Source of the DNA: an uncultured Flavobacteriales bacterium
GTDB taxonomy: Bacteria; Bacteroidota; Bacteroidia; Flavobacteriales; Schleiferiaceae
Direction of reading: 5' to 3'
DNA: 64,000 bases
Assembly: GCA_913055685.1 (NCBI GenBank)
Contig: CAJXKC010000004.1
Span: 62,001 to 126,000 of the forward strand
Numbering within the stretch: position 1 is the stretch's first letter; every line of letters starts with the position of its first letter. This document shows, in pieces, positions 49,901 to 63,877 of the stretch. Both the position numbers and the translations under genes were made by a program. Under the pieces are notes generated by a model, which saw only the letters and a program-made list of their open reading frames with translations, was not told the origin of the DNA and did not search any database.

Positions 49901-50506
49901 AGCCCTGGAACTTCCTACGACTTTATCGTGGCCGATATTTGCGGTAACGATACCAGCGCTACGGTAACTAATACTACTAGTACCGCCAGCGGCCCCTTAC
50001 CAGTTGCAGCCTTTACTTACAGCAGCGACCTAGTGAACAGCCAATCGGTGGTTTATGTGGATGCTAGTAGTTCTAGTAATGGCTCTAGCTTTACCTGGGA
50101 CTTTGGTAATGGTGTTAGTGGTTCGGGTATGATGGACACCGTGGTGTATGTGAATGGCGGTGCTACTACCATTACTTTGATTGTAACTAATGGCTGTGGT
50201 AGCGATACGGCAACAATTAGCCTCGATCCATTTGGAGTAGAAGAGTCATTACTCGGTCAGTCTCTAAATGTGTATCCAAACCCAGCAACTAATTACATTC
50301 AATTAGATGCTAATAGCGCTTCTAGTGCGGCCATCGAAATTGTATTGCGCGACGCTCAAGGTAGAGCGGTAATCAGTACCATGGCCGACGGACATAATGG
50401 ACATCTACGTAAGCAAATTGATGTATCTCAATTGGCAAGCGGAATGTATATCCTTGAATTGCATCAAGATGGATTAAAGGTGAATCGCCGCTTGAGTATC
50501 CGATAA
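43910..50506 (+). CDS. giant T9SS-secreted multidomain adhesin-like protein, copy 3
   Basis: 2198 residues. Signal peptide MKRILLLLFSVATLFAFGQ; the N-terminal block (20-187) is clearly homologous to copies 1 and 2 but diverged at DNA level. Modules: FN3 at 188 and 284, anchor-J at 373, FN3 at 537, MAM-like at 629, FN3 at 825, anchor-J at 917, FN3 at 1091, a second near-identical anchor-J at 1182, FN3 at 1356, MAM at 1448, FN3 at 1637, a lectin/LamG-like sandwich at 1731-1939 (WEINFDMFVPTGDGAYFNIQ, DLDNDTVWFEVNG), FN3 at 1940, PKD about 2025-2110, T9SS type A domain about 2115-2198. The lectin-like module is unique to this copy and suggests glycan binding. A TATCTTCA element lies about 45-50 nt before the start. 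Confidence 0.9.
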   Translation: MKRILLLLFSVATLFAFGQGTVSTSPTLTANNGQAGITFQVQANTPVNITGIGCDLDPGFTGIDVWMRVGGVKSGTSPNVSTAGGWTKVVTNATAPNPVTGTVTAITIATPISIPANTPVGFYVNSLGGSQVNYRTGQSTDQVVFSDGTLTLSVADSVAYGGGLPNPTFNPRRFIGSVTYALGISGSCANMFSNFSVDSIGTDSAVVNWTPGTGNTGFRMEYGLQGFTQGNGTVVTGSYPANNPPITLTGLTPDSDYDIYFTEYCGTDSVYFPGPQSFTTEPICPAPSNITILSLDSVSVTFTYTATTDSINWEWGPNGFQQGTGTSGTAIGDTVTVSGLSPNTAYDLVITSDCSDRGDGLSRPSRISFTTDCGYASVRFTENFDASAFPCLRAYTDVSVGAPSVSITTGFSPTSPPQQLFLSNSSATGAGEDVILVFQPFYGMNNLNRMVEFNAKTSASTTTTLDVVSFPNPDSLGIYNVIQTVTLNGSNQRFTVNLDANSNYNGTDQIIGLRHGAQSTFQSIYVDDFVYDVIPTCPPINPFSVNYSAVGSNVYLSWSSGNSSQGGQVTWGSPGFTPGSNSNLVTTPDSTATVSGLSPNTVYDFYIQDSCGTNDVSVWVGPYSILTGCAAPSPTNLPWTDGFENYSTGPTFNGSANLCDVTHSWRFEASDENTSRLRLQAGAAYYRNGVQAATLDHNPSAGAVQTNYLTLTVNLSNYTTSGGIELGFYVMSHAQEANPNNRVWARGAPTDPWIEVADLDAIRTASATYDSVQSLNIKAFIDAAGQSIGAETQIRFGQAGRFSSFSTSFSDGFTFDDITLNAVSCPEPAGITAGNLYDTTATMSWTGSASNYQYWFGPGGFYQGSTTLGGTKAFTTNNSVVIDTLSGQTCYQFLVRSVCAAGDTSAWAGPFDFCTPCSPISAPYFEDWDGLTAQSKDLGCFTSIEDPGFATSNFIGVTVQNSSFYNPTSSPNYIEFDNSNVTTSPLMMISPPASDITAGDKRIRFMARKQSATYPSELVVGTMSDPSDASTFHLLDTVFLDGTTFTEHIVNITTLNGYNGTDQYFVIAHNQADPFDYLLVDDLHYEVIPTCPEASNLAVLAVDSMNATLKFDPFSGSAGNFQIEYGGSFLGSSLNSQVLVTNDTVTLTSLTPNTNYCFWVREICVPGDTSNWVGPVCFKTLCQAISAPYYENWDNLSAQSKDLGCFSSIEDPSFATSNFVGVTIQNSSFYAPPTSPNYIELDNSNQTASPLMLISPITTDLNAGDKRIRFMARKPSTFYPSTLLVGTMSNPSDANTFTALDTLTLDATQFTEHTVEFTTANGYNGTDDFFVIAHDQADPFDFLLVDEINYEVIPTCVRPDSLAITNITQNSAFASWVNGNGSAAGSYQIEYGLGLLGDASNTRTIINNDTITLNGLTAGTGYCFWVREICTPGDTSLWLGPVCFSTPCPTSYNAPYFTNFEGISLGTASGTPAGWENCWTHNTISGSVRWESEDASGANENSLNTGPFYDNTFSGTAGGTYMYLETSTSGGPAELISPGIDISTVTNPELEYHYHMHGATINKLVVYAENSTGTRTAIDSIIGQQQAAQSDPFLRRNVPLAGLTAGVYKFVFEGHRGTSFTGDISIDDVSVQQGASCPRPLSLTAEGLSPNSAVARWNDPSGALSYQVEFGPAGFTPGTGTMQTSTADSLVLTFANANNLCQEVYVRSICTVGDTSQWVGPTAVCPTPVLCDSLDQYNNASTAAPIWDQSALFVQWAGSFGGDTEISTTQANSAPNSIRIHDLGTQGLSDIVALFDTISSGAWEINFDMFVPTGDGAYFNIQQNYVGGGTGNLWGGEVYFLATGTAEAVYSTGSIQAGTFTYNQNQWFTMTTVIDLDNDTVWFEVNGNSVNVGYQYSLANAGGPLQFNGINFYSGVKAGNSYDCNYYFDNFCINPRVSSCTPPTGLIATSNVGCDSIELDWTSNSGTSVLEYGPSGFTPGTGTAVNVSATPYTVSGLSPGTSYDFIVADICGNDTSATVTNTTSTASGPLPVAAFTYSSDLVNSQSVVYVDASSSSNGSSFTWDFGNGVSGSGMMDTVVYVNGGATTITLIVTNGCGSDTATISLDPFGVEESLLGQSLNVYPNPATNYIQLDANSASSAAIEIVLRDAQGRAVISTMADGHNGHLRKQIDVSQLASGMYILELHQDGLKVNRRLSIR

Positions 50507-50528
50507 TTCCAATTTTTGATAGATTTAG

Positions 50529-50567
50529 AATCCCGTCGAGGCTTTTTGCCTCGTCGGGATTATTTTT
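50529..50567 (+). terminator. rho-independent terminator of adhesin 3
   Basis: AATCCCGTCGAGGC, loop TTTTT, GCCTCGTCGGGATT: a 14-bp stem with one T-T mismatch, then TATTTTT. It differs from the hairpin of copies 1 and 2, and its T-tract overlaps the -7 box of the next gene. Confidence 0.85.
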
Positions 50568-50568
50568 G
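50561..50568 (+). promoter_or_regulatory. -7 box TATTTTTG of the Smr-domain gene
   Basis: Exact TAnnTTTG match inside the terminator T-tract, ending 4 nt before the ATG at 50573, so the transcript would be leaderless. No clear -33 TTG at the usual spacing. Confidence 0.5.
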
Positions 50569-50572
50569 TGCC

Positions 50573-51076
50573 ATGTTTAAGGTCGGGGACATAGTAAGTT
50601 TTTTAAACGATGCGTCAACTGGAGAGGTTATTGCCATCAACGGCGATAAGCTTACCATTATGATGGATTATGGCTTTGAAGAAGAGCACCATATTAAGGA
50701 TTTAGTCCCTCGTAAAAGCCTCAATATTGGGGAGGTCCAGCAAAAGGACCGACCCAAAGCGCGACTCGAAAAAGGTAAAGCGGTAGCCCATGCTCCCGAA
50801 TACTTAGAAGTAGACCTGCACTTTGAGGCTTTGGTGGATTTCCCAAAAAACTTCAGCGCCCATGAAAAATTACAGATTCAATTATCCGAAGTCCGAAAGT
50901 CTTTGGATAAAGCGCGACGAGCCGGTATTAAAAAAGTGATCCTAATTCATGGAGTAGGGCAGGGCCGTTTAAGGGAAGAGGTATATACTTTATTAGAGCG
51001 CATGGACCGACTCAGTTTTTACGATGCCTCTTATGCGCGATATGGAAAAGGGGCTACCGAGGTTGACTTACGCTAA
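50573..51076 (+). CDS. DUF2027/Smr-domain protein
   Basis: 167 residues from the ATG at 50573; an upstream in-frame TTG would start within the terminator of the preceding gene. N-terminal SH3-like barrel (MFKVGDIVSFLNDASTGEVI, about 1-55, as in DUF2027 proteins), linker, then a Smr domain (about 85-167) with the DLH motif (LEVDLHFEAL) and HGVGQGRLREEV, the HGxGxG signature of MutS2/Smr nucleases and nucleic-acid binders. Cytosolic. Smr domains act on branched DNA or on RNA/ribosomes; which applies here is unknown. Confidence 0.88.
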   Translation: MFKVGDIVSFLNDASTGEVIAINGDKLTIMMDYGFEEEHHIKDLVPRKSLNIGEVQQKDRPKARLEKGKAVAHAPEYLEVDLHFEALVDFPKNFSAHEKLQIQLSEVRKSLDKARRAGIKKVILIHGVGQGRLREEVYTLLERMDRLSFYDASYARYGKGATEVDLR

Positions 51077-51721: not shown

Positions 51722-52672
51722 CTAGCCTTCAACCGCTACTTCATGTTCACTTAAATAACGTTCGGCCTCCAAGGCTCCCATGCAGCCACTTCCGGCAGCG
51801 GTAATGGCCTGGCGGTAGATTTTATCTTGCGCATCTCCAGTGGCAAATACGCCCGGTAAATTTGTGCTGGCAGTACCAGGCTTGGTTTTAATATAACCTA
51901 CCTCGTCCATATCAATCTGGCCTTTGAAAATGTCGGTATTAGGCTTGTGGCCAATGGCAACAAAGAAACCTTCTGCTTCCACTACACTTTCCTCACCGGT
52001 CTGATTGTTTTTAACGCGCACCCCGCTAACAGTTTTGTCACCCAATACTTCTAGGGTATCGGTGTTCCAAAGCACTTCAATATTAGGAGTGTCTAATACG
52101 CGCTGTTGCATAATTTGAGAAGCACGCATTTCGTCGCGACGTACCAATAAAGTTACCTTAGGACAAAGCTTGGCCAGGTAGGTAGCTTCTTCTGCGGCCG
52201 AATCACCACCACCAACAACTACTACATCTTTACCTTTAAAGAAGAAACCATCGCAAATGGCACAGGCCGAAACGCCATGACCCATCATCTTCTTCTCAGA
52301 CTCTAGGCCTAGGTATTTCGCACTCGCACCAGTGGCAATAATTACCGTACGGGCCAATACTTCGGTACTTTCATCGATGGTGAGTTTGTGGTATTCACCC
52401 GGAATCTTACTTAATTCTGCCTTGGTAACAATACCAAAACGAATGTCGGTACCAAAACGCTCCGCTTGTTTACGCAAATCTTCCATCATTTCCGGACCCA
52501 TAATTCCTTCGGGGTATCCAGGGAAGTTTTCTACATCCGTAGTAGTAGTAAGTTGTCCACCTGGCTCAAGGCCGGTATATATAATTGGCTTTAAATCAGC
52601 ACGAGCGGCATAAATAGCTGCAGTGTAGCCGGCAGGACCGGAGCCAATGATCACGCAATCGTGTTTTTCCAT
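51722..52672 (-). CDS. trxB: thioredoxin-disulfide reductase
   Basis: 316 residues, normal length for the low-molecular-weight bacterial enzyme. FAD-binding CVIIGSGPAGYTAAIYAAR at the N terminus, redox-active C137/C140 in CAICDG, NADPH-binding VVVGGGDSAAEEA, and the C-terminal FAD motif GVFATGDAQD. It reduces thioredoxin with NADPH in the cytosol. It stands alone on the minus strand with its own promoter. Confidence 0.97.
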   Translation of the reverse strand: MEKHDCVIIGSGPAGYTAAIYAARADLKPIIYTGLEPGGQLTTTTDVENFPGYPEGIMGPEMMEDLRKQAERFGTDIRFGIVTKAELSKIPGEYHKLTIDESTEVLARTVIIATGASAKYLGLESEKKMMGHGVSACAICDGFFFKGKDVVVVGGGDSAAEEATYLAKLCPKVTLLVRRDEMRASQIMQQRVLDTPNIEVLWNTDTLEVLGDKTVSGVRVKNNQTGEESVVEAEGFFVAIGHKPNTDIFKGQIDMDEVGYIKTKPGTASTNLPGVFATGDAQDKIYRQAITAAGSGCMGALEAERYLSEHEVAVEG

Positions 52673-52893: not shown

Positions 52894-53763
52894 ATGGATT
52901 CTTCCCCCTCAATAGCTCAGCCTAAAATTGGGCCACTTTTATACCAATTAAGTTTAGCGGCAATCGTAATTGCGGTTACCTTTTATTTGGCCTATTACGG
53001 TTACGATTATTACCAAACTCCGCTCGAAGAAAGGTTTTACCATCCTAAACACGAATGGTTTAAAGCTACAGGCTTATTTGGTCACGGTTTAGGAATCATT
53101 GGCACCTTGATGATTGCAATAGGGGTATTCGTTTATATTCCGGCTAAGAAATATGGTTTCCTGGAGCGCTTTATTCGTCTTAAGTACCTTTTAGAGTTTC
53201 ACATTTTTCTCTGCACTCTAGGGCCTATCTTAATTCTCTTTCATACCACCTTTAAATTCGGGGGGATTGTTTCAATCGCTTTTTGGTCCATGGTGCTAGT
53301 GGTTTTAAGTGGTGTTATCGGCCGCTATATTTATTTGCAAATACCGAGAAGTATCAACGGACGGGAATTAAGCTTGCAAGAAATTCGGGCCGAGGAGCAA
53401 AATCTGGAAAGGGGTTTAGGACTGCTTTCCAAATATTCGCAAGAATGGCATCGCAAAATCTTAGCCTATACCAACCCTAAGAAAGGACTCTGGGCTCGGC
53501 CGGCATATGCCCGAAAGTTTAGGCTCGAATTAAAGCGCAACCTTAAAGAAGAAGCCGGTCTCGAACCGAGTGATTTGAAATCTATTTTACAAGCAAGCAA
53601 GGCGCAAATTGCCATGCGTCATAAAATTGAGCGGCTCGAATTAATGCAGCGACTCTTTAGATACTGGCATGTGGCCCACCGCCCATTTGCCCTCATCATG
53701 CTTTTTATTGTTATCGTTCACGTGGTCATTACGGTGGCTATGGGCTATTATTGGATTTTCTGA
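52894..53763 (+). CDS. b-type cytochrome-like membrane protein
   Basis: 289 residues with about five membrane helices: about 17-36, 62-82, 100-119, 127-148 and 264-284. Histidines sit inside or at the ends of helices, as expected for bis-His heme b: H64 (GLFGHGLG), H103 and H117 (FHIFLCTLGPILILFH), and H259, H262 and H276 (WHVAHRPFALIMLFIVIVH). A long basic amphipathic segment (about 150-250) faces the cytosol. It resembles cytochrome b561 / ferric-reductase-like membrane domains, but I cannot name the family. First gene of the seven-gene cytochrome operon; it overlaps the next gene (TGATG). It likely passes electrons between the quinone pool or the flavoprotein and the periplasmic cytochromes. 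Confidence 0.8.
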   Translation: MDSSPSIAQPKIGPLLYQLSLAAIVIAVTFYLAYYGYDYYQTPLEERFYHPKHEWFKATGLFGHGLGIIGTLMIAIGVFVYIPAKKYGFLERFIRLKYLLEFHIFLCTLGPILILFHTTFKFGGIVSIAFWSMVLVVLSGVIGRYIYLQIPRSINGRELSLQEIRAEEQNLERGLGLLSKYSQEWHRKILAYTNPKKGLWARPAYARKFRLELKRNLKEEAGLEPSDLKSILQASKAQIAMRHKIERLELMQRLFRYWHVAHRPFALIMLFIVIVHVVITVAMGYYWIF

Positions 53764-55085
53764 TGGAAGAGTTTTTAGCCTACAGTATTACCCTTTTAAT
53801 TTCACTGGCCATAGTGCTCTACTATTGGCGCGGTCACGCTAAGAAAAGCGCCCAAGTAAAAGCGAAGGTGGCCCAGGCCAAGGAGGAAGGACGTTTCGAA
53901 CCTGTTTCATTGCATCCTTATATCGATCCCAATTTATGCCTAGGTAGCGGTGCATGTGTTAGAGCCTGCCCCGAAGAAGATATTCTGGGGCTAATAAATG
54001 GTAAAGCCACCGTAATTAACGCCAGTAGCTGTATTGGTCACGGGGCCTGTTTTCATGCTTGTCCTGTTGAAGCAATCAGTTTGCGAATTGGTACCGAAAC
54101 AAGGGGAGTAGACTTACCCCATATTAAACCTGACTATGAAACCAATGTCCCCGGAATATACATCGCGGGTGAATTGGGGGGCATGGGCCTCATTAAAAAT
54201 AGTGCCGAACAGGGCATGCAAGCCGTCACAAATTTAGAAAAGCATTTAGTCAAGAACCATCCTATGGAGCAAGACCTCCTTATCGTTGGAGCTGGCCCTG
54301 CGGGTATTGCCGCGGCCTTAAAAGCCAAAGAATTAGGACTAAAATTTCGCATTCTTGAGCAAGAATCCTTGGGCGGCACGGTCTTTACTTTTCCGCGCGA
54401 TAAGGTGGTAATGACCCAACCGGTTGAGCTACCTTTTTACGGTAAGCTCAAACTTTACAATACCTCTAAGCAAGAATTACTGGCAATTTGGCTTGATTTA
54501 CTGGAATCCAACCAAATTAAAATTGAGGAGCATTGCAAGGTAAATGGCATTCAAGAACTAGGGCCTTACCAGTTTAGTATAAACACCAACAAGGGTGAAG
54601 ACATTAAAGCGGCTTCGGTTCTTTTAGCTATTGGGAGGCGAGGCACTCCGCGTAAACTGGGGATTCCGGGCGAGGAAAGTACCAAGGTTGCTTACCGCCT
54701 ATTAGATAGCGAGCAAATTGAGGGTCTCAAGATTATTGTGGTGGGAGGCGGCGATTCGGCGGTTGAGTCGGCCTTATTACTAATGGATAAAAACCAGGTA
54801 ATTCTCAGTTACCGAAAGGAGCATTTTGCCCGCATTAAAAAACAAAATCAAAGCAAATTGGAAGCGGCTCTGGCCGAAGGTAAAATTGAGCTGAAACTAG
54901 CTTCCAATCTAATGGAAATAAAGGAGGAGCGGGTTTTACTTCGCAATAGTGCGGGGGAAGAAGAAAGCCTTGAAAATGACAAGGTTTACATTTTTATCGG
55001 TGGCGAATTACCCTTACCTTTCTTGAAGGAATGCGGCATCGAAGTGGAAAAAACCTTTGGTAAAGTGCTTAAGAAGTATCGATGA
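53763..55085 (+). CDS. membrane-tethered ferredoxin/FAD-dependent oxidoreductase
   Basis: 440 residues from the ATG overlapping the previous stop. N-terminal membrane helix (about 7-21), then a two-cluster ferredoxin region and a thioredoxin-reductase-like flavoprotein domain with FAD motif LLIVGAGPAGIAAALKA, NAD(P) motif IIVVGGGDSAVESAL and the GEESTKVAYRL region; the CxxC redox pair of TrxR is absent. The Fe-S motifs are odd: C59-L-G-S62-G-A-C65-VRA-C69-P and C90-I-G-H93-G-A-C96-FHA-C100-P, each lacking the usual second cysteine (Ser and His instead). It probably links NAD(P)H or a quinone to the membrane cytochrome. It overlaps the 20-heme cytochrome gene by 4 bp. Confidence 0.85.
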   Translation: MEEFLAYSITLLISLAIVLYYWRGHAKKSAQVKAKVAQAKEEGRFEPVSLHPYIDPNLCLGSGACVRACPEEDILGLINGKATVINASSCIGHGACFHACPVEAISLRIGTETRGVDLPHIKPDYETNVPGIYIAGELGGMGLIKNSAEQGMQAVTNLEKHLVKNHPMEQDLLIVGAGPAGIAAALKAKELGLKFRILEQESLGGTVFTFPRDKVVMTQPVELPFYGKLKLYNTSKQELLAIWLDLLESNQIKIEEHCKVNGIQELGPYQFSINTNKGEDIKAASVLLAIGRRGTPRKLGIPGEESTKVAYRLLDSEQIEGLKIIVVGGGDSAVESALLLMDKNQVILSYRKEHFARIKKQNQSKLEAALAEGKIELKLASNLMEIKEERVLLRNSAGEEESLENDKVYIFIGGELPLPFLKECGIEVEKTFGKVLKKYR

Positions 55086-56671
55086 AAACATGGTTGGGCA
55101 TAGTATTAATCCTCCTAGGCTTTACGAGCTGGGGGCAATTTTCGCCGGGTAAACTCAGCCGGGCGCATGCCGACCTGGAAGGTTTATCGAATTGCACCCA
55201 GTGTCATGAATTAGGGAAAAAGGTTTCGGATGCCAAATGCCTCGACTGCCATAAAGAGCTTAGTTCTTTATTGGATGCGAATCGAGGTTACCACGCTTCC
55301 GCTGATGTTAAATCTCAGTCCTGTATAAAGTGCCATAGCGAACACCATGGCCGCGACTTTAATATGGTGCGTTTTGACACCATTAATTTCGCACATCAAC
55401 TCACGGGCTATAAATTAGAAGGTGCGCATCAAAAGGTTGATTGCCGTGAATGTCATAAACCCGATTACATAGGCGATACGGAGCTTGCTAAGCGCACCGG
55501 TACCTATCTGGGTTTGGAAGAAGCCTGCCTAAGCTGCCATGTCGATTACCATCAACAAACTTTAGGCGAAGACTGCCTTGCCTGTCATCGCTATGAATCC
55601 TTTGAGGAAGCCCCTCGTTTCGATCATCAAAAAACTAAATTCCCTTTAAAGGGAGCTCATAGGCAGGTAAGCTGTGAGGAATGCCATCCTAAATCTATTC
55701 AGCAAAAGCGAGAGTTCCAGGCTTTTAACGGAATCGCTTTTAGTGCTTGCACCGATTGCCATCAGGATGCGCATCAAGGAAAGTTTGGGCCAAAATGTAC
55801 CGATTGCCACAATGAACAATCTTGGTCAAAGCTCAAAGCTTCCAATCGATTCGATCATAATCTTACCCACTATCCCTTAGTGGGTTTACACCGCACGGTA
55901 GCTTGTGCGGATTGCCATAGTGGGGGCGACTTCAAGCGAAAGCTTACTTTTGAGCGTTGTACCGACTGCCATGAAAACTACCACCAGGAGGAAATAGAGG
56001 ACCTAAGCTTAGGTATTAAAGATTGTTCGGACTGCCATAGTCTCCAGAAGGACTTTAGCTATTCTTCTTTTGGTATTTTAGAGCACGACGATAGCGATTT
56101 TCCATTAGAAGGAGCCCATTTAGCAACCCCTTGTTTTGCTTGTCATAAGGAAGATGAGATTAGTCGCTGGGATTTTGCTTTTGAATCGAATAATTGTGTG
56201 GCCTGTCATGAAGATATTCACCGCAATTACATCGATGCGAAATATTACCCTGATCAAGATTGCCAGGCCTGCCATAACTCCGAAAATTGGCAGCAGCTTA
56301 GCTTTGATCATACGCAAACCGACTGGCCTTTAGAAGGGGCTCATGCCCAAACGAATTGCGCTGCCTGCCATTTCCCTGAGGGAGGAGAACAACGGTTTGT
56401 GGATATAGATCAGCAATGCCAATCTTGCCACGATAATAGCCATGGCAATCAATTCGGTGCCCTCGATAAGGTGGACTGCACCAGCTGCCATCGGGCGGCT
56501 ATGGATTGGCAAGCTTATAACTTCGATCATCAAAAAACACAATTCCCCTTAGAGGGTAAACATGCCGAAATTGACTGTGCTGCCTGTCATAAGGTTCAGG
56601 CTGAGCTTCCCGAACAGGGACCTTTATACACCATTAAAAAATTCGAATGTTTAGATTGCCACGCTTCTTAA
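55082..56671 (+). CDS. multiheme cytochrome c with 20 CxxCH sites
   Basis: 529 residues with a signal peptide (WLGIVLILLGFTSWGQ). I count 20 CxxCH heme-attachment motifs (for example NCTQCH, KCLDCH, DCAACH). Many are preceded by a repeated unit of about 70 residues reading FDHxxTxFPLEGAHxxxxCxxCH; the FDH and GAH histidines are candidate distal heme ligands. Exported, c-type, probably periplasmic or at the outer membrane; no T9SS domain and no lipobox. It overlaps the following cytochrome gene by 25 bp. Likely a long-range electron wire; electron donor and acceptor unknown. Confidence 0.92.
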   Translation: MKTWLGIVLILLGFTSWGQFSPGKLSRAHADLEGLSNCTQCHELGKKVSDAKCLDCHKELSSLLDANRGYHASADVKSQSCIKCHSEHHGRDFNMVRFDTINFAHQLTGYKLEGAHQKVDCRECHKPDYIGDTELAKRTGTYLGLEEACLSCHVDYHQQTLGEDCLACHRYESFEEAPRFDHQKTKFPLKGAHRQVSCEECHPKSIQQKREFQAFNGIAFSACTDCHQDAHQGKFGPKCTDCHNEQSWSKLKASNRFDHNLTHYPLVGLHRTVACADCHSGGDFKRKLTFERCTDCHENYHQEEIEDLSLGIKDCSDCHSLQKDFSYSSFGILEHDDSDFPLEGAHLATPCFACHKEDEISRWDFAFESNNCVACHEDIHRNYIDAKYYPDQDCQACHNSENWQQLSFDHTQTDWPLEGAHAQTNCAACHFPEGGEQRFVDIDQQCQSCHDNSHGNQFGALDKVDCTSCHRAAMDWQAYNFDHQKTQFPLEGKHAEIDCAACHKVQAELPEQGPLYTIKKFECLDCHAS

Positions 56672-57666
56672 TATTCTTCTGGTCTTTCGCCTTATGGGCC
56701 CAGAATCCGCATGGTGATGATTTTCGCATCAATTGTGCCGATTGCCATAACTCTGGATCTTGGCAGGTGGATTACGCTACCATTAACTTTGACCACAGCA
56801 AGCAAACTGGTTTTGAGCTAGAAGGAAGACATGCTGAGGTAAATTGCATGGACTGCCATCAGCAATTAAACTTCAAAGGCCTCGAGGCAAATTGCGTCTC
56901 TTGTCACACCGATGTGCATGAAATGACCGTGGGCGACGACTGCGTGCGTTGCCATAACAGTGATTCATGGTTGGTTTTTGCCATACCCGAGATGCACGAA
57001 CAGAATGGCTTTCCCCTAATGGGTGCGCATGTTACCCTTGCCTGTGTAGATTGCCACAAATCGGATAATAACCTGGCTTGGCAGCGTATTGGTAATGAAT
57101 GTATTGACTGCCACCGAGAAGACTATACGGCGACGCAAAACCCGAATCACTTGAGCTCAGGTTTTGGCACCGATTGCATTCAGTGCCACGAACCAATGAG
57201 TCGCGATTGGGGTGGGGATAATTTCCACTATTTCTTTCCGCTCACCGGCGGACACGATATGCTCGAATGCATGGATTGCCACCAAAGTACTAGCTACAAT
57301 CAAATTGAAGCGGTATGTGCCTCCTGTCATATCGAAGATTACAATAATGCTAGTCAGCCTAACCACATTAGCTCTGGCTTTCCGGTCGAATGTACCCTTT
57401 GCCATAACACCAATCCCGGTTGGTCCCCTGCTAGTTTTAGGAGTCACGACGACAATTATTTCCCCATCTATAGCGGTCGCCACGCAGGGGTCTGGAACTC
57501 TTGTGCCGAATGCCATTTAAACCCTTCTAACTTTAGTAGTTTTAGCTGTATCGACTGCCATGAGCATAGCAATGAAAACGAAATGCGCGATGAGCATGAC
57601 GATGTTGGAGGTTTCCGTTTCGAAAGTACTGCCTGTTACAATTGTCACCCGCGCGGCGAAGAATAA
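56647..57666 (+). CDS. multiheme cytochrome c with 13 CxxCH sites
   Basis: 339 residues. The ATG at 56647 lies within the 3' end of the 20-heme gene and gives a good signal peptide (FLIFFWSFALWAQ). I count 13 CxxCH motifs (for example NCADCH, ACVDCH, SCIDCH, ACYNCH). The same FDHxx..FxLxGxH repeat occurs in at least four copies, so the two cytochromes come from a common repeat. Two near-copies of PNHLSSGF/PNHISSGF frame the middle part. It is followed by the beta-barrel gene with TAATG overlap, suggesting a complex with that outer-membrane protein. Confidence 0.92.
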   Translation: MFRLPRFLIFFWSFALWAQNPHGDDFRINCADCHNSGSWQVDYATINFDHSKQTGFELEGRHAEVNCMDCHQQLNFKGLEANCVSCHTDVHEMTVGDDCVRCHNSDSWLVFAIPEMHEQNGFPLMGAHVTLACVDCHKSDNNLAWQRIGNECIDCHREDYTATQNPNHLSSGFGTDCIQCHEPMSRDWGGDNFHYFFPLTGGHDMLECMDCHQSTSYNQIEAVCASCHIEDYNNASQPNHISSGFPVECTLCHNTNPGWSPASFRSHDDNYFPIYSGRHAGVWNSCAECHLNPSNFSSFSCIDCHEHSNENEMRDEHDDVGGFRFESTACYNCHPRGEE

Positions 57667-59279
57667 TGCGCTGGACTATTTACATATCGCTGGCGATCAT
57701 AAGTCTTCAAGCTAAAGCCCAAGTGCTCGAAGGTACCGTATCGTACCTTAATGCTTCTAATGTTTACTTACGCTTTGAAAGCACCGAAAAACTAGAGCTT
57801 GGGGATACTTTGTACCGAGATGCGCAGCAAAAGGAACCCTGTTTGTTTATCCTCAAGAAATCTTCCCTTTCCGCACTTTGCGAAGCTATCGCCGATTGCG
57901 ATCTGGAAAAAGGCCAAAGGCTTTACACGAAACCTTATCCACAATCACCAGAAAAGCGAAAAGAGCGAGAAGAGATTGCGGAAAGCTTAAAGACCGAACC
58001 ATCTGCTTCCCCTGAAGATAGCCTAAGGCAAGCCAAGCAGGCTAATCCTCAATTTAGCAAGGGAGCGCCCCAGCAGTCAAACTTTCGCGCGCGAATTTCG
58101 TATGATAATGCCAGTACCTACCGCCTCGACGATTTCCGGGCTAATATGCGAAATGTACTGCGCAGCTCGGTTAGTTGGGATAGCCTGGGGGGACGCGATT
58201 TAAGATTGGAGACCTATTTTAATTTCCAGCACTTTCAACGCTCCTATGAAACTGAGGCAGACCCCTACCGGCTCAACTTTTACAATTTAGCATTGGTCTA
58301 CAGACGGGGGCAGCAGCAGTTTGTTTTGGGTCGCAGGGTAAATCGCCGCATTTCCTCTTTGGGCGCTATCGACGGCCTGCAATACGAATACCGCTGGAAG
58401 AATTTTAGCTTGGGTGCTATTGCTGGCAGTAGACCCGACTTCGAGACTTTTGGTTATAACCCTAAATTGATGCAGTTTGGTGCTTATTCGGCTTATGATT
58501 ACCAAAAGGGGAAATTCAATTTGCAAAGTACCTTAGGATGGGTGCAGCAGAATAATAATGGCGGCATAGACCGACGGTATGTTTACACTCAGAATAGTTT
58601 AAGCTATGGCGATTGGCTCTGGTTCTCATCGGCCGAAATAGATTTGTACCAGAATTTTGATACCGCTACCGCTCAATCCGATTTTAAACTGACTTCCCTC
58701 TACCTTTCATTGCGCTATCGATTTAATGCCAAGCTCAATCTCTTTGTGTCTTACGATAATCGGCAGCAGCTCATCTTTTTCCAGCAGTACGACTCAGAGG
58801 TGGAACGCCTTTTGGCCGAACAGGGGACTCGGCAAGGCCTGCGCTTTAGGCTTAACTACCGAATTTTTAAATCTACCCAGCTTGGCCTCAGCTACAATAT
58901 TCGCTTGGCTTCAAATCCGAATGAAGGTTCAGAGAATTACTCGGCCTATATTAGCCAGACTTTGCCCTGGATTGGTGGCACACTCAGCTATCGTTTTAAT
59001 TTAAATCAGACCTATTTCTTGAACTCTGAAATTAATGCCTTGCGCTACAGCCGCTATTGGCGTTCCAATAAATTATACACGGCCCTTTACTTTAGGTATC
59101 TGAGTTACCTTTATCCCGAGCGTGAAATTGTTTTAGATCCCATTATGTATGCCGGAGCAGAATGTTCGTATCGATTTGAAAATGATTGGAGCTTAGGCCT
59201 CTTGGCCGAGTACAACCTGAATTATCAAGCCGATTTAATTCGTTTTAACCTTAGACTGACCAAAAACCTAAAATTTTAG
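57666..59279 (+). CDS. outer-membrane beta-barrel protein of the cytochrome operon
   Basis: 537 residues from the ATG at 57666, overlapping the previous stop. Signal peptide IYISLAIISLQAKAQ, then a small N-terminal beta domain (VLEGTVSYLNASNVYLRFES, about 20-95), a charged linker (about 100-150), and then about 380 residues of alternating amphipathic strands (FRARISYDNAS, LRLETYFNFQHF, LYLSLRYRFNAKLNLFVSY) ending in LRLTKNLKF with a terminal Phe. That is a porin-like barrel of about 20-24 strands. In porin-cytochrome conduits such a barrel houses a multiheme cytochrome; here that is inference from gene order. Confidence 0.8.
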   Translation: MRWTIYISLAIISLQAKAQVLEGTVSYLNASNVYLRFESTEKLELGDTLYRDAQQKEPCLFILKKSSLSALCEAIADCDLEKGQRLYTKPYPQSPEKRKEREEIAESLKTEPSASPEDSLRQAKQANPQFSKGAPQQSNFRARISYDNASTYRLDDFRANMRNVLRSSVSWDSLGGRDLRLETYFNFQHFQRSYETEADPYRLNFYNLALVYRRGQQQFVLGRRVNRRISSLGAIDGLQYEYRWKNFSLGAIAGSRPDFETFGYNPKLMQFGAYSAYDYQKGKFNLQSTLGWVQQNNNGGIDRRYVYTQNSLSYGDWLWFSSAEIDLYQNFDTATAQSDFKLTSLYLSLRYRFNAKLNLFVSYDNRQQLIFFQQYDSEVERLLAEQGTRQGLRFRLNYRIFKSTQLGLSYNIRLASNPNEGSENYSAYISQTLPWIGGTLSYRFNLNQTYFLNSEINALRYSRYWRSNKLYTALYFRYLSYLYPEREIVLDPIMYAGAECSYRFENDWSLGLLAEYNLNYQADLIRFNLRLTKNLKF

Positions 59280-59280
59280 A

Positions 59281-60054
59281 ATGAAGTTTCAAAGCAAGCT
59301 TTTCCTCTTCCTTTTTTCTTTCACTATTGCCTGTAACAATGGCCCAGAGGTACTAGAGGCACAGGAGGCAGTACCCGAGGCAGAGGCCATCTTTAAAGCC
59401 CCATCAAATCAAACCCAAGAAGTAGCTAGTTCTCCAAATAGCCGCCATAAGGTTCTTTTAATAGATTCCTTGCAAGGAGAGAAGTACTCCTATTTTAAGG
59501 TTCGGGAAGCAGAAAAAGAATTTTGGATTGCTACGATGAAGGTAAACTTACCCTTGCAAAGCGAATATCTTTTTGATAAAGGCCTCTTTAAAACCAATTA
59601 TTATTCGAGTGAGTTTAATCGCAATTTTCAGGAAATCTATTTGGTTTCCGATTTAAGGCCTGCCCAAAAGCATGGCGGAACGGTAGGTAATGCGATAGAA
59701 ACGTTGGTAAAAGGAGGGAATTCTAAAACATCAAGTACGATTCCTTCAGAAAGTAGCCTCGAACGTGAAGGCTCTATTAAAATCCGTGAGCTAATAAGTA
59801 ATGCCGATAAATATGTGGGGCAGGAGGTGCAGCTTACGGCTAAAGTCACTAAGATTAATGCCAATATTATGGATCGCAATTGGCTCCATCTGCAAGATGG
59901 TAGCTTCGACAGTTTTGATATGGTCGCTACTAGTTTAGAGGCGGTACCAGCCGGACACATCATAACCATTAAAGCCAAATTAGCTAAGGATGTTAACTTC
60001 GGTGCGGGTTACAGCTACGACTTCATCTTGCAGAATGCGCAATTAGTGAAATAG
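59281..60054 (+). CDS. lipoprotein with C-terminal OB-fold-like domain
   Basis: 257 residues. Lipoprotein signal with lipobox (SFTIAC, Cys18), a Glu/Ala-rich linker, a middle beta domain containing KVLLIDSLQGEKYSYFKVRE, another linker, and a C-terminal OB-like domain (about 165-257) with IKIRELISNADKYVGQEVQL, WLHLQDGS and HIITIKAKLAKDVNFGAGY. Similar small OB proteins accompany cytochrome clusters in other bacteria. It lies 1 bp after the barrel gene and 3 bp before the cytochrome c synthetase gene. Function unknown; possibly heme handling or complex assembly. Confidence 0.75.
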   Translation: MKFQSKLFLFLFSFTIACNNGPEVLEAQEAVPEAEAIFKAPSNQTQEVASSPNSRHKVLLIDSLQGEKYSYFKVREAEKEFWIATMKVNLPLQSEYLFDKGLFKTNYYSSEFNRNFQEIYLVSDLRPAQKHGGTVGNAIETLVKGGNSKTSSTIPSESSLEREGSIKIRELISNADKYVGQEVQLTAKVTKINANIMDRNWLHLQDGSFDSFDMVATSLEAVPAGHIITIKAKLAKDVNFGAGYSYDFILQNAQLVK

Positions 60055-60057
60055 CTT

Positions 60058-63000
60058 ATGAAGAAGATTATTGATGCGCTTTTCGGCCGAAAGGCGGCCC
60101 TTTTTTACATTTTGGCCTTTGCGATTGCTATTGGCGCGGCAACCTTTATTGAAAACGACTACGGTACCGACTCGGCACAAAAGGTAATTTACCAAGCTTG
60201 GTGGTTCGAACTCCTGCTTCTTGCTTTTAGCCTTAGTCTAGTTAAGAATATCATTGATTTTAAACTAATCAGCCGCCGTATGTGGGCGGTTTTATTGTTT
60301 CATCTTTCCTTTCTAATTATTCTTTTAGGTGCGGCCATCACTCGTTTCAGTGGATTTGAAGGGATGATGCATATCCGGGAAGGAGATACTAGTAATCGCT
60401 TTGTGAGTAGTGAAAGCTATCTCAAGTTTGACTTCCAGAAAGGGGGACAAAGCTTTGCCGTTGAGGAGCCCGTACTTTGGTCGAGCTTAGGTTCCAATTC
60501 TTTCGAAAAATCCTACCAAATAGGAAAGCAGCGGATTGATATTCGCCTGAAAGACCTTACCGTAAACCCCGCCTATGATATTATTGCTGATGAAGAAGGA
60601 AAACCGATCTTAAAATTGGTCTTCGGCGGTGCTGCTGGTCGCGATGAATATGCCCTCCGCTACGGCGAGCATCTAGACCTTCAAGGCATTCATTTTAATT
60701 TTTCGGATCTACCTGAACCAGGTTCTTTTAACATTATTCTGGGGGATAGTGGTCCGCTAGTACTCACCGCCCAGCCCTACCAGTATATGCGCATGGCCAA
60801 TCGAGCTATTGATAGCATTAAGGGCGATACTTTAAGTCCTTTGGCTTTACGAAGCCTATACTCCTATGCGGGTCGTTCATTTGTATTTGGTGATTACCTA
60901 CCGTCCGGTCGCTTGCAGCGCTACAGTGAAAGTGCGAAAATCAAGAATGAAAGCAGTATTGGCCTAAATTTAGAAGTGCAAGTAGGCGAAGAAAGGCAGC
61001 TGGTTTATTTGGAAGGCGCTAAGGGCTATCTTGGTGAGCCTAAAAGCTTGGAAATGGCCGATTTACAAATAAATCTCGCTTATGGTGCAAAGTTGAGAAG
61101 CTTACCCTTCAGCTTAAAGCTGTACGATTTTCAAATGGAACGTTATCCCGGCACTAATTCGCCGGCTTCCTATGCCAGTGAAGTGCAGTTAATCGATAGC
61201 GAAGAAGGAATTCAAAGCGACTATCGCATTTACATGAATAATATTTTAAGTCACCGTGGCTACCGTTTCTTCCAATCTTCTTACGATCGCGACGAAAGGG
61301 GAACTTATTTATCGGTCAACCACGATTTCTGGGGAACCTGGATCAGTTATCTGGGCTACTTCCTGCTTACCTTAGGGATGGTATGGACCCTCTTTAGTAA
61401 AGAAAGTCGTTTTAGCATGCTAGCCCAACAGATAAAAAGGATAAGGGCCAAAAGGGGAGCGGCAATGCTCTTAATCCTCTGCAGTTTGCCACTTTTTGCT
61501 CAAGAGCAATTACAAGCCAGTTTACCGCAGGTTTCGGAGCGCCATGCCGAGGCTTTCAGTGAAGTATTGGTTCAGGATATTCGGGGCCGGATGAAGCCTA
61601 TGCATACGCTCAGCAGAGAGGTTATGCGTAAGGTTTATGGAAAGGAAAGCTATCAAGGCCTCAATGCCGAGCAGGTTCTGCTTAGTATCTGGGCCGAAAA
61701 CTCTGCTTGGTATGGGGTACCACTAATTAAAATGCCCTTTCACCCCCGATTCAAAGAGCTAGGTTTCGAGGGCCAGTACCATGCTTATCGCGACTTCTTT
61801 GCCGAAGATGGTTCTTACAAGCTTTCGGCATTAGTGCAGGAGGCTAATAACACTATAGACAAAGAAAAAGGGACTTTCGAAAAGGCTATTTTGAAGCTCG
61901 ATGAAAAGATCAATATTGTAAACATGATGCTATCGGGTTATCTCCTCCGCATCATTCCCCTCGAGGGTGACCCTAATAATACCTGGGTTTCCAATCATGG
62001 TCACGGCGAGCAGCAATCTATTGTGGCTGAAAAATTCTTTCCTACCTACCGCATAGCCTTAATTAAAGGATTCGCGAACGGCGATTTTAGTACCGCCGAT
62101 GGCATCATTCAGGAACTCGTTAAATACCAAGATAAGCAAGATTCAGCCCTTTTACCTTCTCCATTGCAACGCTCCTTGGAGATTCTATTGAATAAGCTTA
62201 ATGTCTTTAATCGTTTAGCCTTTGTTTATCTATTCCTGGGTTTAGCCTTTTTAGTCAGCCTCTTTTTACAAGTCTTTAGACCTAAACTATCCTTAGCTCC
62301 CATCATCAAGCTTCTCGGCCTTTTGCTAATTCTAGCCTTTTTGTTTCACAGCTTTGGATTGGGACTACGTTGGTATGTTTCGGGACGGGCACCATGGAGC
62401 AATGGTTATGAGTCGATGATATATATCGCCTGGACCGCTACCTTGGCGGGAATATTATTTAGTCGAAAATCGGCCGGAGCCATGGCCGCTACCAATGTCC
62501 TTTCGGGTGTCGTCTTATTAATTGCCTATCTCAGCTACTTAAACCCCGAGATCACTCCTCTGGTACCCGTATTAAGGTCCTATTGGTTAACCATTCACGT
62601 GAGTCTCGAGGCGGGATCCTATGGATTTTTAATGCTTGGTGCTATAATTGGTGTCATCAATCTTATCTTGATGATTTTCCTCACCGAAGCCAATAAAAAG
62701 AGTCTCCGCGATATTATTAGCGAAATGACCAAAATTAGTGAGATGACGCTCATAGGAGGCTTGTTTATGTTAAGCGTAGGGACCTACTTAGGCGGAGTGT
62801 GGGCCAATGAAAGTTGGGGACGCTATTGGGGTTGGGACGCCAAAGAAACCTGGGCCCTGGTGTCTATTCTGGTTTATGCCTTTATTCTTCATATGCGCTT
62901 TGTGCCCAAATTAGCCGGATACTTTGCCTTTAATTTCGCGAGCCTTTTTGGTTTGGCTTCAATAATTATGACCTATTACGGCGTAAACTATTACCTCAGT

Positions 63001-63120
63001 GGTTTGCATTCGTATGCCGCGGGCGATCCCGTACCGGTACCTAATTGGGTTTACTATTCGGTAGCTAGCTTGGCGCTGATAAGTGCTTTAGCCTACTGGC
63101 GTCAAAGGAAAATGATTTAG
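60058..63120 (+). CDS. ccsBA: fused ResB-ResC (CcsBA-type) cytochrome c biogenesis protein
   Basis: 1020 residues, as expected for the ResB-ResC fusion. The N-terminal ResB part has three membrane helices (about 14-32, 47-62, 75-93) and a large periplasmic domain; a helix at about 430-450 follows. The C-terminal ResC/CcsA part (about 720-1020) has eight or so helices with the heme-handling WWD motif (WGRYWGWDAKETWA, about 919-932) and flanking histidines (IHVSLEAGSYG, LHMRFVPK). System II heme lyase that delivers heme to the periplasm and attaches it to CxxCH. Being last in the cytochrome operon, it would serve the 33 heme sites encoded just upstream. Confidence 0.93.
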   Translation: MKKIIDALFGRKAALFYILAFAIAIGAATFIENDYGTDSAQKVIYQAWWFELLLLAFSLSLVKNIIDFKLISRRMWAVLLFHLSFLIILLGAAITRFSGFEGMMHIREGDTSNRFVSSESYLKFDFQKGGQSFAVEEPVLWSSLGSNSFEKSYQIGKQRIDIRLKDLTVNPAYDIIADEEGKPILKLVFGGAAGRDEYALRYGEHLDLQGIHFNFSDLPEPGSFNIILGDSGPLVLTAQPYQYMRMANRAIDSIKGDTLSPLALRSLYSYAGRSFVFGDYLPSGRLQRYSESAKIKNESSIGLNLEVQVGEERQLVYLEGAKGYLGEPKSLEMADLQINLAYGAKLRSLPFSLKLYDFQMERYPGTNSPASYASEVQLIDSEEGIQSDYRIYMNNILSHRGYRFFQSSYDRDERGTYLSVNHDFWGTWISYLGYFLLTLGMVWTLFSKESRFSMLAQQIKRIRAKRGAAMLLILCSLPLFAQEQLQASLPQVSERHAEAFSEVLVQDIRGRMKPMHTLSREVMRKVYGKESYQGLNAEQVLLSIWAENSAWYGVPLIKMPFHPRFKELGFEGQYHAYRDFFAEDGSYKLSALVQEANNTIDKEKGTFEKAILKLDEKINIVNMMLSGYLLRIIPLEGDPNNTWVSNHGHGEQQSIVAEKFFPTYRIALIKGFANGDFSTADGIIQELVKYQDKQDSALLPSPLQRSLEILLNKLNVFNRLAFVYLFLGLAFLVSLFLQVFRPKLSLAPIIKLLGLLLILAFLFHSFGLGLRWYVSGRAPWSNGYESMIYIAWTATLAGILFSRKSAGAMAATNVLSGVVLLIAYLSYLNPEITPLVPVLRSYWLTIHVSLEAGSYGFLMLGAIIGVINLILMIFLTEANKKSLRDIISEMTKISEMTLIGGLFMLSVGTYLGGVWANESWGRYWGWDAKETWALVSILVYAFILHMRFVPKLAGYFAFNFASLFGLASIIMTYYGVNYYLSGLHSYAAGDPVPVPNWVYYSVASLALISALAYWRQRKMI

Positions 63121-63163: not shown

Positions 63164-63877
63164 CTAGAAATTCGGCTTCAACATATACTTCAAGTAGAAG
63201 TCTTCAATTACTTCCACCGCTTCATCGGCAGTATCTACTAATTTGAAGAGTTCTAAATCCTGAGCACTAATGTTATTCTCCGCTTCAAGCAGGGTGTTTT
63301 TAATCCATTCGATTAAGCCACCCCAAAACTTCTTACCTACCAAAACAATCGGGAAGCGCCCTATTTTATAGGTTTGGATGAGGGTCAGTGCCTCAAAAAG
63401 TTCGTCAAGGGTACCAAAGCCTCCAGGCATAACCACGAAGCCCTGGGAGTATTTTACGAAGATTACCTTACGCACGAAGAAATAGTCGAAATCGAGGCTT
63501 TTATCGGGATCAATAAAAGGGTTGGGCTCTTGTTCCATCGGTAAATCGATGTTTAGTCCCACCGAATTACCCTTGCCTTTTTGCGCCCCCTTGTTACCGG
63601 CCTCCATAATGCCTGGTCCACCGCCAGTAATAATTCCAAAGCCACTTTGGGTAAGCTTGTAGGAAATTTCTTCCGCTAACTGATAGTAGGGATTGTCGGG
63701 CTTGGTGCGAGCCGAACCGAAAATGGTAACGCAAGGCCCCAGGCGAGCCATACTTTCATATCCATTAACGAATTCGCTCATTATTTTAAAAATGCCCCAG
63801 CTGTCGTTGGTGCGTATCTCGTTCCAACTCTTCGGTTCAAAGGCCCGTTTGAGTTGATCATCGTTCTTATTTGTCAT
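63164..63877 (-). CDS. LOG-family protein (TIGR00730)
   Basis: 237 residues. The Rossmann-fold LOG motifs are complete: TIFGSARTKPDN, ITGGGPGIMEAGNKGA and VVMPGGFGTLDELFEAL (PGGxGTxxE). LOG proteins cleave nucleoside monophosphates such as cytokinin ribotides to the free base and ribose 5-phosphate; many bacterial members have unknown substrates. Cytosolic. It starts 10 bp after the uvrA stop on the same strand, so it is likely co-transcribed with uvrA. Confidence 0.9.
   Translation of the reverse strand: MTNKNDDQLKRAFEPKSWNEIRTNDSWGIFKIMSEFVNGYESMARLGPCVTIFGSARTKPDNPYYQLAEEISYKLTQSGFGIITGGGPGIMEAGNKGAQKGKGNSVGLNIDLPMEQEPNPFIDPDKSLDFDYFFVRKVIFVKYSQGFVVMPGGFGTLDELFEALTLIQTYKIGRFPIVLVGKKFWGGLIEWIKNTLLEAENNISAQDLELFKLVDTADEAVEVIEDFYLKYMLKPNF

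Follow-up and report, generated by a model that had tools for sequence, protein, structure and literature searches.

A seven-gene multiheme cytochrome operon in an uncultured Flavobacteriales bacterium, a probable PCC3-like electron conduit across the envelope

The DNA analysed here is a stretch of 64,000 nucleotides (the window) of contig CAJXKC010000004.1 from an uncultured Flavobacteriales bacterium of the Schleiferiaceae, whose genome (assembly GCA_913055685.1) comprises 2.96 Mb in 8 contigs. Our subject is a multiheme cytochrome operon at positions 52894-63120, where the open reading frames (ORFs) give seven genes on the + strand, neighbours overlapping by 1-25 nt or lying 1-3 nt apart. 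The first gene (52894..53763, 289 residues) encodes a cytochrome b that hydropathy, alignment and weak Pfam relatives assign to the inner-membrane protein (IMP) type of the PCC3 clusters compared below. It has one base in common (TGATG) with the gene of a membrane-anchored flavin/iron-sulfur protein (53763..55085, ORF of 444 residues), which was recognized by Pfam and NCBIfam matches, motifs and hydropathy and probably starts at ATG 53763 rather than at TTG 53751. This gene overlaps by 4 nt with that of a first multiheme cytochrome c (MHC-A, 55082..56671, 529 residues), which in turn overlaps by 25 nt with that of a second (MHC-B, 56647..57666, 339 residues). One base (TAATG) is again common to MHC-B and the gene of a presumed outer-membrane beta barrel, identified by a structure model (57666..59279, 537 residues from the probable start at ATG 57666, rather than TTG 57642). 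A lipoprotein (59281..60054, 257 residues, FTIAC lipobox read by eye) follows after a gap of 1 nt, and after 3 nt comes CcsBA, a ResB-CcsB fusion of 1020 residues (60058..63120). An earlier note, made from the letters alone, had proposed a seven-gene operon at these positions and on this strand, with cytochromes of 20 and 13 hemes; the ORFs read there agree with it, and counting CxxCH gives exactly 20 for MHC-A and 13 for MHC-B. Since CxxCH is present solely in these two among the window's non-overlapping ORFs of at least 90 residues, and since the gene set recurs in distant genomes (see below), the operon goes beyond chance.

The cytochrome b has five transmembrane helices as predicted from hydropathy, and its heme ligands (H103/H117 and H262/H276) form two HX13H pairs that lie on the third and fifth of the five segments, with SGVIG between them; all four histidines are invariant in 38/38 aligned sequences. 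The window protein has no Pfam match at E 0.1. Among its relatives, with E-values up to 1 accepted, Ferric_reduct matches 6/38 (best 5.5e-5) and DUF4405 26/38 (best 1.2e-5), and cytochrome b561 is also found among the weak Pfam relatives. In the distant loci L067-L074 both HX13H pairs are present and SGxxG was not found. Further distant relatives occur on proteobacterial plasmids (L076-L083) in a small module with a 2Fe-2S protein and usually a c-type cytochrome; several of these modules have copper-resistance genes as neighbours, and in Alteromonas the neighbours are hydrogenase genes.

The flavin/iron-sulfur protein (flavoprotein hereafter) begins with a single transmembrane helix by hydropathy, followed by a ferredoxin-like region and then by an FAD and NAD(P) domain like that of YpdA and thioredoxin reductase. 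Its two ferredoxin-like motifs have three cysteines each (CxxSxxCxxxCP and CxxHxxCxxxCP). The second motif, with His at the usual position of the second Cys, is retained in 95/97 members and the CxxSxxC of the first in 73/97, and the clusters bound here may be 3Fe-4S or unusually ligated. Because of the NAD(P) fold, NAD(P)H is the likely partner, judging by the family. Such a flavin/NAD(P) unit together with a transmembrane di-heme b protein would resemble a split NADPH oxidase or ferric reductase. A regular expression finds the motif order permuted in 83/97 members, and residues 172-444 align with the product of the neighbouring trxB gene at a score of 118 (shuffle maximum 55). It may be that the domain is circularly permuted, with its usual C-terminal segment placed in front; this is suggestive only, because the moved segment alone scores 38, under the shuffle maximum of 48 (mean 29).

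MHC-A (26.5 residues per heme, signal peptide read by eye) is nearly fixed in its heme number. In 88 complete MHC-A-like ORFs selected by profile, the heme number is 20 in 67 and 23 in 11, together 78/88; a first count, in which copies were selected by their SPGxL start, had given 74/76 with 20 or 23. The remaining ten comprise split ORFs, ORFs cut short at the N-terminus and four giant forms: a split ORF of 12 + 11 hemes (L033), 17 hemes with a two-CxxCH ORF before it (L064), two ORFs of 19 hemes that begin between the first and second heme (L115, L122), 14 hemes with five more in the preceding ORF (L125), and the giant single-cytochrome forms of L068, L069, L070 and L072. All 20 CxxCH of the window protein, and 20 further (distal) His, are conserved in 74/74 rows of an alignment of complete copies with SPGxL start and 20 or 23 CxxCH (L001-L007 and the duplicate L117 dropped); as these rows were chosen by heme count, the count is circular in this alignment, and the positions are not. 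On the aligned residues MHC-A is thus a 20-heme bis-His chain, and the heme count by itself is uninformative on function. In the giant forms (L068:9752-18158, L069, L070, L072; Deltaproteobacteria/Nitrospirae metagenome-assembled genomes) one cytochrome of 37-66 hemes replaces MHC-A and MHC-B and sits between cytochrome b and a shorter barrel of about 410 residues. Its N-terminus is clearly MHC-A-like (124-138 bits versus at most 29 elsewhere). It reaches about 120 bits against the MHC-B head, where pure MHC-A reaches up to 102, and 28-37 bits against the MHC-B tail, barely over background; as these head and tail matches hardly exceed MHC-A and background scores, we do not claim it as an A-B fusion that would prove contact of the two cytochromes.

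MHC-B, whose signal peptide was likewise read by eye, varies in length by a simple rule. Among 56 complete copies that carry the two end signatures, PHG close to the N-terminus and CxxCHPxG close to the C-terminus, 53 have a heme number of 3k+1, with a range of 10-64 (binomial p 4e-22 if the copies were independent, which they are not). If the end-signature filter is dropped, the rule holds in 65/78 complete copies (69/90 by a cruder split), and among the 13 that depart from it are Bacteroidales forms of 12 hemes that lack the C-terminal tail, three forms of 9 hemes, and single ORFs of 11, 14, 15, 21, 35 and 38 hemes. The 3k+1 numbers arise because a near-constant head of 10 hemes (commonest spacing 36,16,16,34,19,25,32,16,25) is followed by a variable run of tri-heme repeats, commonly spaced about 32-35,15,25, and then by a tail of 3 hemes spaced about 35-37,15,28. 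At each step the head spacing is within 3 residues of the commonest in 48/56 copies, and the eight that depart include three 10-heme forms with a shorter head. The 13-heme MHC-B of the window, like that of six congeners, is head plus tail with zero central repeats; as the 10-heme forms exist elsewhere, it is repeat-free yet not the shortest. In the 43 genes of at least 22 hemes (the four giant loci included) the tri-heme modules are on average 52-68% alike in DNA, and since module pairs more than 90% alike are limited to 8/43, repeat expansion is recent in some genes only. In the PDB, the MHC-B profile has its best relatives in 3ov0, a 'Cytochrome c family protein' (E 5.5e-6), and in the sixteen-heme cytochrome 1z1n. 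We take 3ov0 to be the Geobacter tri-heme-repeat protein GSU1996, presumably a stand-alone protein of 12 hemes. An array of tri-heme units is thus common to MHC-B and the Geobacter c7-type proteins, and the TIGR04257 tri-heme domain matches MHC-A below its cut-off, but the MHC-B arrays run from 10 to 64 hemes, have a near-constant head and tail, and are linked to a barrel.

The barrel was modelled from 35 sequences with pLDDT 83 and pTM 0.67. After a signal peptide, a small N-terminal beta domain (residues 22-88) and a disordered linker (92-129), the model has 22 strands in residues 139-536 and no plug domain; the 'large' barrel proposed earlier is therefore mid-sized. By the barrel formula with an assumed shear of n+2, the backbone radius is near 20 Angstrom for 22 strands versus 23.5 for 26, so that in the model a slim heme chain could fit inside. 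The best 50 rows of each fold search (Foldseek, VIA-align) hold ushers, OprD-type porins and TonB-dependent transporters (top Z 19.0) and no cytochrome-conduit porin, an absence that excludes nothing. MtrB in particular is neither among these rows nor among the six PDB matches of the barrel profile up to E 10. In Pfam, DUF481 matches one barrel member and Porin_4 four.

The lipoprotein, present in part of the clusters, appears accessory; it had been called an OB-fold protein, for which Pfam gives no support, the sole sub-threshold match being to GW (E 0.026), and a GW/SH3-like part is possible. CcsBA has PF05140 (77.9 bits) and PF01578 (124.4 bits), both above cut-offs, and a WWD-type motif at residue 920, and scores 171.7 bits against TIGR03144 (cut-off 187.6). 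Judged by these domains, it is a System II cytochrome c synthetase. TIGR03144 matches two other places in the genome, both at C2:288-290 kb, where the ORFs read by eye as what we presume to be CcmF (805 residues), CcmE, CcmC and CcmB. Because these ccmB/C/E/F-like genes lie elsewhere in the genome, CcsBA is a second maturation system; the operon has its own synthetase, as proposed, in addition to them. In many clusters of the other gene order (below) or of Ignavibacteria type, cytochrome b is followed instead by a membrane-anchored protein of about 200 residues. In the nine examined (L115, L118, L120, L123, L134, L136, L143, L146, L152) TPR models match 9/9, and the CcmH/CycH TPR model of cytochrome c biogenesis matches 7/9, two of them above its cut-off, which suggests a maturation helper.

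We then matched the gene set against 395 genomes drawn across the phylum. Cytochrome b was found in 41 (in G165 as a partial weak match only) and the barrel in 37, all of them within the 41 (Fisher p 7e-48 if kinship is disregarded). A full set, defined as cytochrome b, flavoprotein, at least two cytochromes of at least 8 hemes and the barrel, is present in 31 of the 39 neighbourhoods that remain when the window genome and G165 are set aside. The barrel and the cytochromes are therefore co-conserved in relatives, one of the points on which the earlier note had staked its proposal. Of the eight failures, five are cut by contig ends (L121, L128, L129, L131, L152), in L139 the cytochrome b frame is intact and was missed by the ORF filter, and in L124 cytochrome b and barrel are about 20 kb apart. 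The last, L150 (G176:C56), is decayed, with an internal stop in cytochrome b, a short barrel remnant and the middle genes gone. Four genomes were positive for cytochrome b and negative for the barrel (G165, G326, G397, G416); with a second profile, G416 does show a barrel and G326 part of one. The genes commonly follow one of two orders, the first with cytochrome b, (TPR), flavoprotein, MHC-A, MHC-B and barrel, the other with cytochrome b, (TPR), MHC-A, MHC-B, (a cytochrome of 9-10 hemes), barrel and flavoprotein. Among 67 named loci the whole set occurs in Flavobacteriales, Chitinophagales, Bacteroidales and Melioribacteraceae records, and Saprospiraceae contigs hold its first four genes and end there. 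Aequorivita antarctica (L025) has cytochromes of 23 and 22 hemes. Plasmid pEMTOL02 of Emticicia oligotrophica (L075) has CcsBA, cytochrome b, flavoprotein, cytochromes of 23 and 40 hemes, barrel and lipoprotein, and is the only hit of a barrel search of 72,556 plasmid records; genes for YceI, Rieske and DUF5777 barrel proteins are near its conduit genes. Within the genus of the window genome, cytochrome b and barrel are in 7/7 genomes, while in the rest of the family cytochrome b is in 2/81. The loci of congeners G001-G003 have the same coordinates as L010, L008 and L009 of named Flavobacteriales genomes (L009, Flavobacteriales bacterium ih4, matching G003:C1:377180-378013), in agreement with the Bacteroidota origin first proposed. 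The counts in genus and family, the plasmid copy and the open deep forks of the cytochrome b tree fit horizontal transfer of the cluster, with loss as the alternative.

The earlier note had considered the order and components unlike those of Mtr or Pcc clusters. A difference from all known conduits is not supported, as PCC3 clusters have the same parts list. In the accessible parts of He et al. (2017, PMC5566968) these consist of an inner-membrane protein, a periplasmic cytochrome of about 21 hemes, a variable second cytochrome and a porin. The inner-membrane protein of PCC3 and PCC4 is described there with about 300 residues, five transmembrane helices, SGxxG and two HX13H (WX3HX13H), and is compared with both the ferric reductase domain and quinone-active b cytochromes. 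The window cytochrome b has the five hydropathy segments, the SGVIG and both HX13H pairs, and the two large cytochromes adjoin a predicted barrel as in PCC3. Also alike are the low residue-to-heme ratio (about 26-27 in the window operon) and a first cytochrome that steps by three hemes, with 20/23 here and 21, 24 or 27 in Gallionellaceae, where the second is given 10-35 hemes (PMC10734462, as excerpted). The differences are the linked flavin/iron-sulfur protein, the lipoprotein and CcsBA of this branch, a barrel of 22 strands versus up to 42 predicted transmembrane regions there, and a second cytochrome of mostly 3k+1 hemes (10-64), to which numbers the PCC3 proteins are not confined in the descriptions available. 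The operon architecture thus matches published PCC3 clusters in the compared features, which are those of the descriptions. PCC3 is reported, in the parts available, from Proteobacteria (among them Sideroxydans CL21, PMC12442390).

With MtrCAB, MtoAB and PioAB the operon has in common the principle of a periplasmic wire and an outer-membrane barrel, but Pfam finds no CymA/NapC-type protein in it and the barrel has no convincing PDB sequence match. Against the DmsE/MtrA family (cut-off 192.2) the scores are 49.8 bits (MHC-A) and 21.7 bits, far from an Mtr/Mto cytochrome. The ExtN and ExtO families of the Ext selenite/tellurite type match MHC-A only weakly (39.1 and 38.4 bits, cut-off 200). In the same phylum, novel porin-cytochrome clusters without homology to known conduits were reported from Bacteroidetes metagenome-assembled genomes in 2019 and 2021 (PMC6344600, PMC8258643), the latter with seven genes of which six are called multiheme cytochromes. 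They are alike in having a barrel and multiheme genes; in the portions available, which allow comparison by description only, they are mentioned briefly and with no such heme-number pattern or operon anatomy. In the literature searched, with subscription papers and preprints outside its reach, no description of clusters with this anatomy was found. What is new are the rules on heme number, the linkage of the flavoprotein, the extra synthetase and the spread across the phylum.

We read the operon as a PCC3-like trans-envelope electron conduit that probably carries NAD(P)H electrons outward, and give this reading a probability of roughly 0.7. The gene set, heme counts, conserved ligands, predicted barrel fold, co-occurrence and second maturation system are what the sequences show, and at the level of genes a redox set from inner to outer membrane in a single operon, as first proposed, is borne out. 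Cytoplasmic NAD(P)H would be oxidised by the membrane-anchored flavoprotein and the electrons would cross the inner membrane through the HX13H cytochrome, by way of its two b hemes. Next they would enter the 20-heme MHC-A, the proposed periplasm-spanning wire, whose heme number may be nearly fixed because the periplasm must be spanned. From there they would pass to MHC-B (the order of the two being inferred), the near-constant head of which may sit in or at the 22-strand barrel while its remaining hemes reach the surface, and leave to an extracellular acceptor. CcsBA would attach the 33 hemes of both cytochromes. Several observations weigh against this reading. He et al. (PMC5566968, in the parts available) propose the quinone pool as the PCC3 partner. 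The barrel profile has a best PDB match of E 0.26 only, the single-chain model of MHC-B is poor (pLDDT 44.6, pTM 0.24, 19 sequences), and nothing places MHC-B on the surface, as no lipobox was seen by eye and an NCBIfam scan of the seven proteins gave no type IX secretion system (T9SS) domain. In three Nitrospinota/Nitrospinae loci (L071, L073, L074), and likewise in L012 (a 3.7 kb contig), cytochrome b has no flavoprotein, multiheme gene or barrel among the listed neighbours, so cytochrome b alone is no conduit marker.

The same conduit might run inward, with electrons donated by extracellular Fe(II)/Mn(II) or by a different cell and delivered to the quinone pool or, via the flavoprotein, to NAD(P)+. 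In the sources as excerpted, Fe(II) oxidisers are the main context in which PCC3 is discussed, and one family search of the genome found, besides a 7-CxxCH lipoprotein, an ActA-like gene that has six CxxCH and precedes genes reading by eye as alternative complex III, so that oxygen could be the final acceptor. We consider this direction unlikely, since most clusters include a linked flavoprotein of the NAD(P) type, reduction of NAD(P)+ from Fe(II) would be uphill with no coupling device seen, and the RuBisCO large subunit was not found in the genome, which leaves no sign of autotrophy by that route. Rather improbable, too, is a role outside respiration, in redox-supported uptake or detoxification (metal or metalloid reduction) at the outer membrane. 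The distant cytochrome b relatives on plasmids adjoin 7-CxxCH cytochromes, several beside copper-resistance genes, and the Ext families do touch MHC-A; yet those modules have the 2Fe-2S protein instead of the flavoprotein and no annotated barrel inside (CopB is nearby in some), the Ext scores are far under the cut-off (39 versus 200 bits), and Pfam, applied to three genes around the operon, identifies one with an Smr domain (50516-51076), one that is trxB-like and on the opposite strand (51722-52672) and one of the lysine-decarboxylase family (63164-63877), the remaining window being unannotated. That the cytochromes are a periplasmic electron store or distributor for soluble reductases, with the barrel an unrelated porin of convenience, agrees with their plain Sec-like signal peptides (by eye) and with literature, seen in excerpt, that suggests heme-rich proteins as charge stores, but is very improbable given that every barrel-positive genome is also cytochrome b-positive and that Pfam/NCBIfam find no reductase catalytic subunit among the seven proteins.

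Two observations lie apart from the operon. The 7-CxxCH protein (L163:1003-2961, G000:C4; 652 residues) is about 20 kb beyond the window and unlinked to the operon, and has by eye a lipoprotein-like start and a TPR-like second half. Within the window, three consecutive giant proteins of 2057-2198 residues (31137-37505, 37622-43795, 43910-50506) have a T9SS type A sorting tail in 3/3 and choice-of-anchor J domains in 2/3.

Returning to the outward conduit, the likeliest picture of the organism is an oxygen-respiring heterotroph that would pass NAD(P)H electrons to an acceptor outside the cell when oxygen runs low. More speculatively, the operon may be a quinone-independent, NADPH-oxidase-like circuit across the envelope, in which a cytosolic NAD(P)H flavin/iron-sulfur unit and a di-heme b protein feed a fixed-length 20-heme 'ruler' and then a single-chain surface wire evolving by tri-heme modules (10-64 hemes), its head threaded through the 22-strand barrel, and this may be a main extracellular electron route of Bacteroidota and Ignavibacteria; we hold this wider proposal as tentative. 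Bacteroidota are seldom credited with extracellular electron transfer, and a conserved conduit in about one tenth of the sampled species makes the question testable, the named isolates Aequorivita antarctica and Emticicia oligotrophica (on its plasmid) carrying the conduit genes. The nearly fixed 20/23-heme first cytochrome and the tri-heme-stepped second lead to a clear prediction about how wire length is set, and the head-repeat-tail layout would offer ready-made protein wires of graded length.

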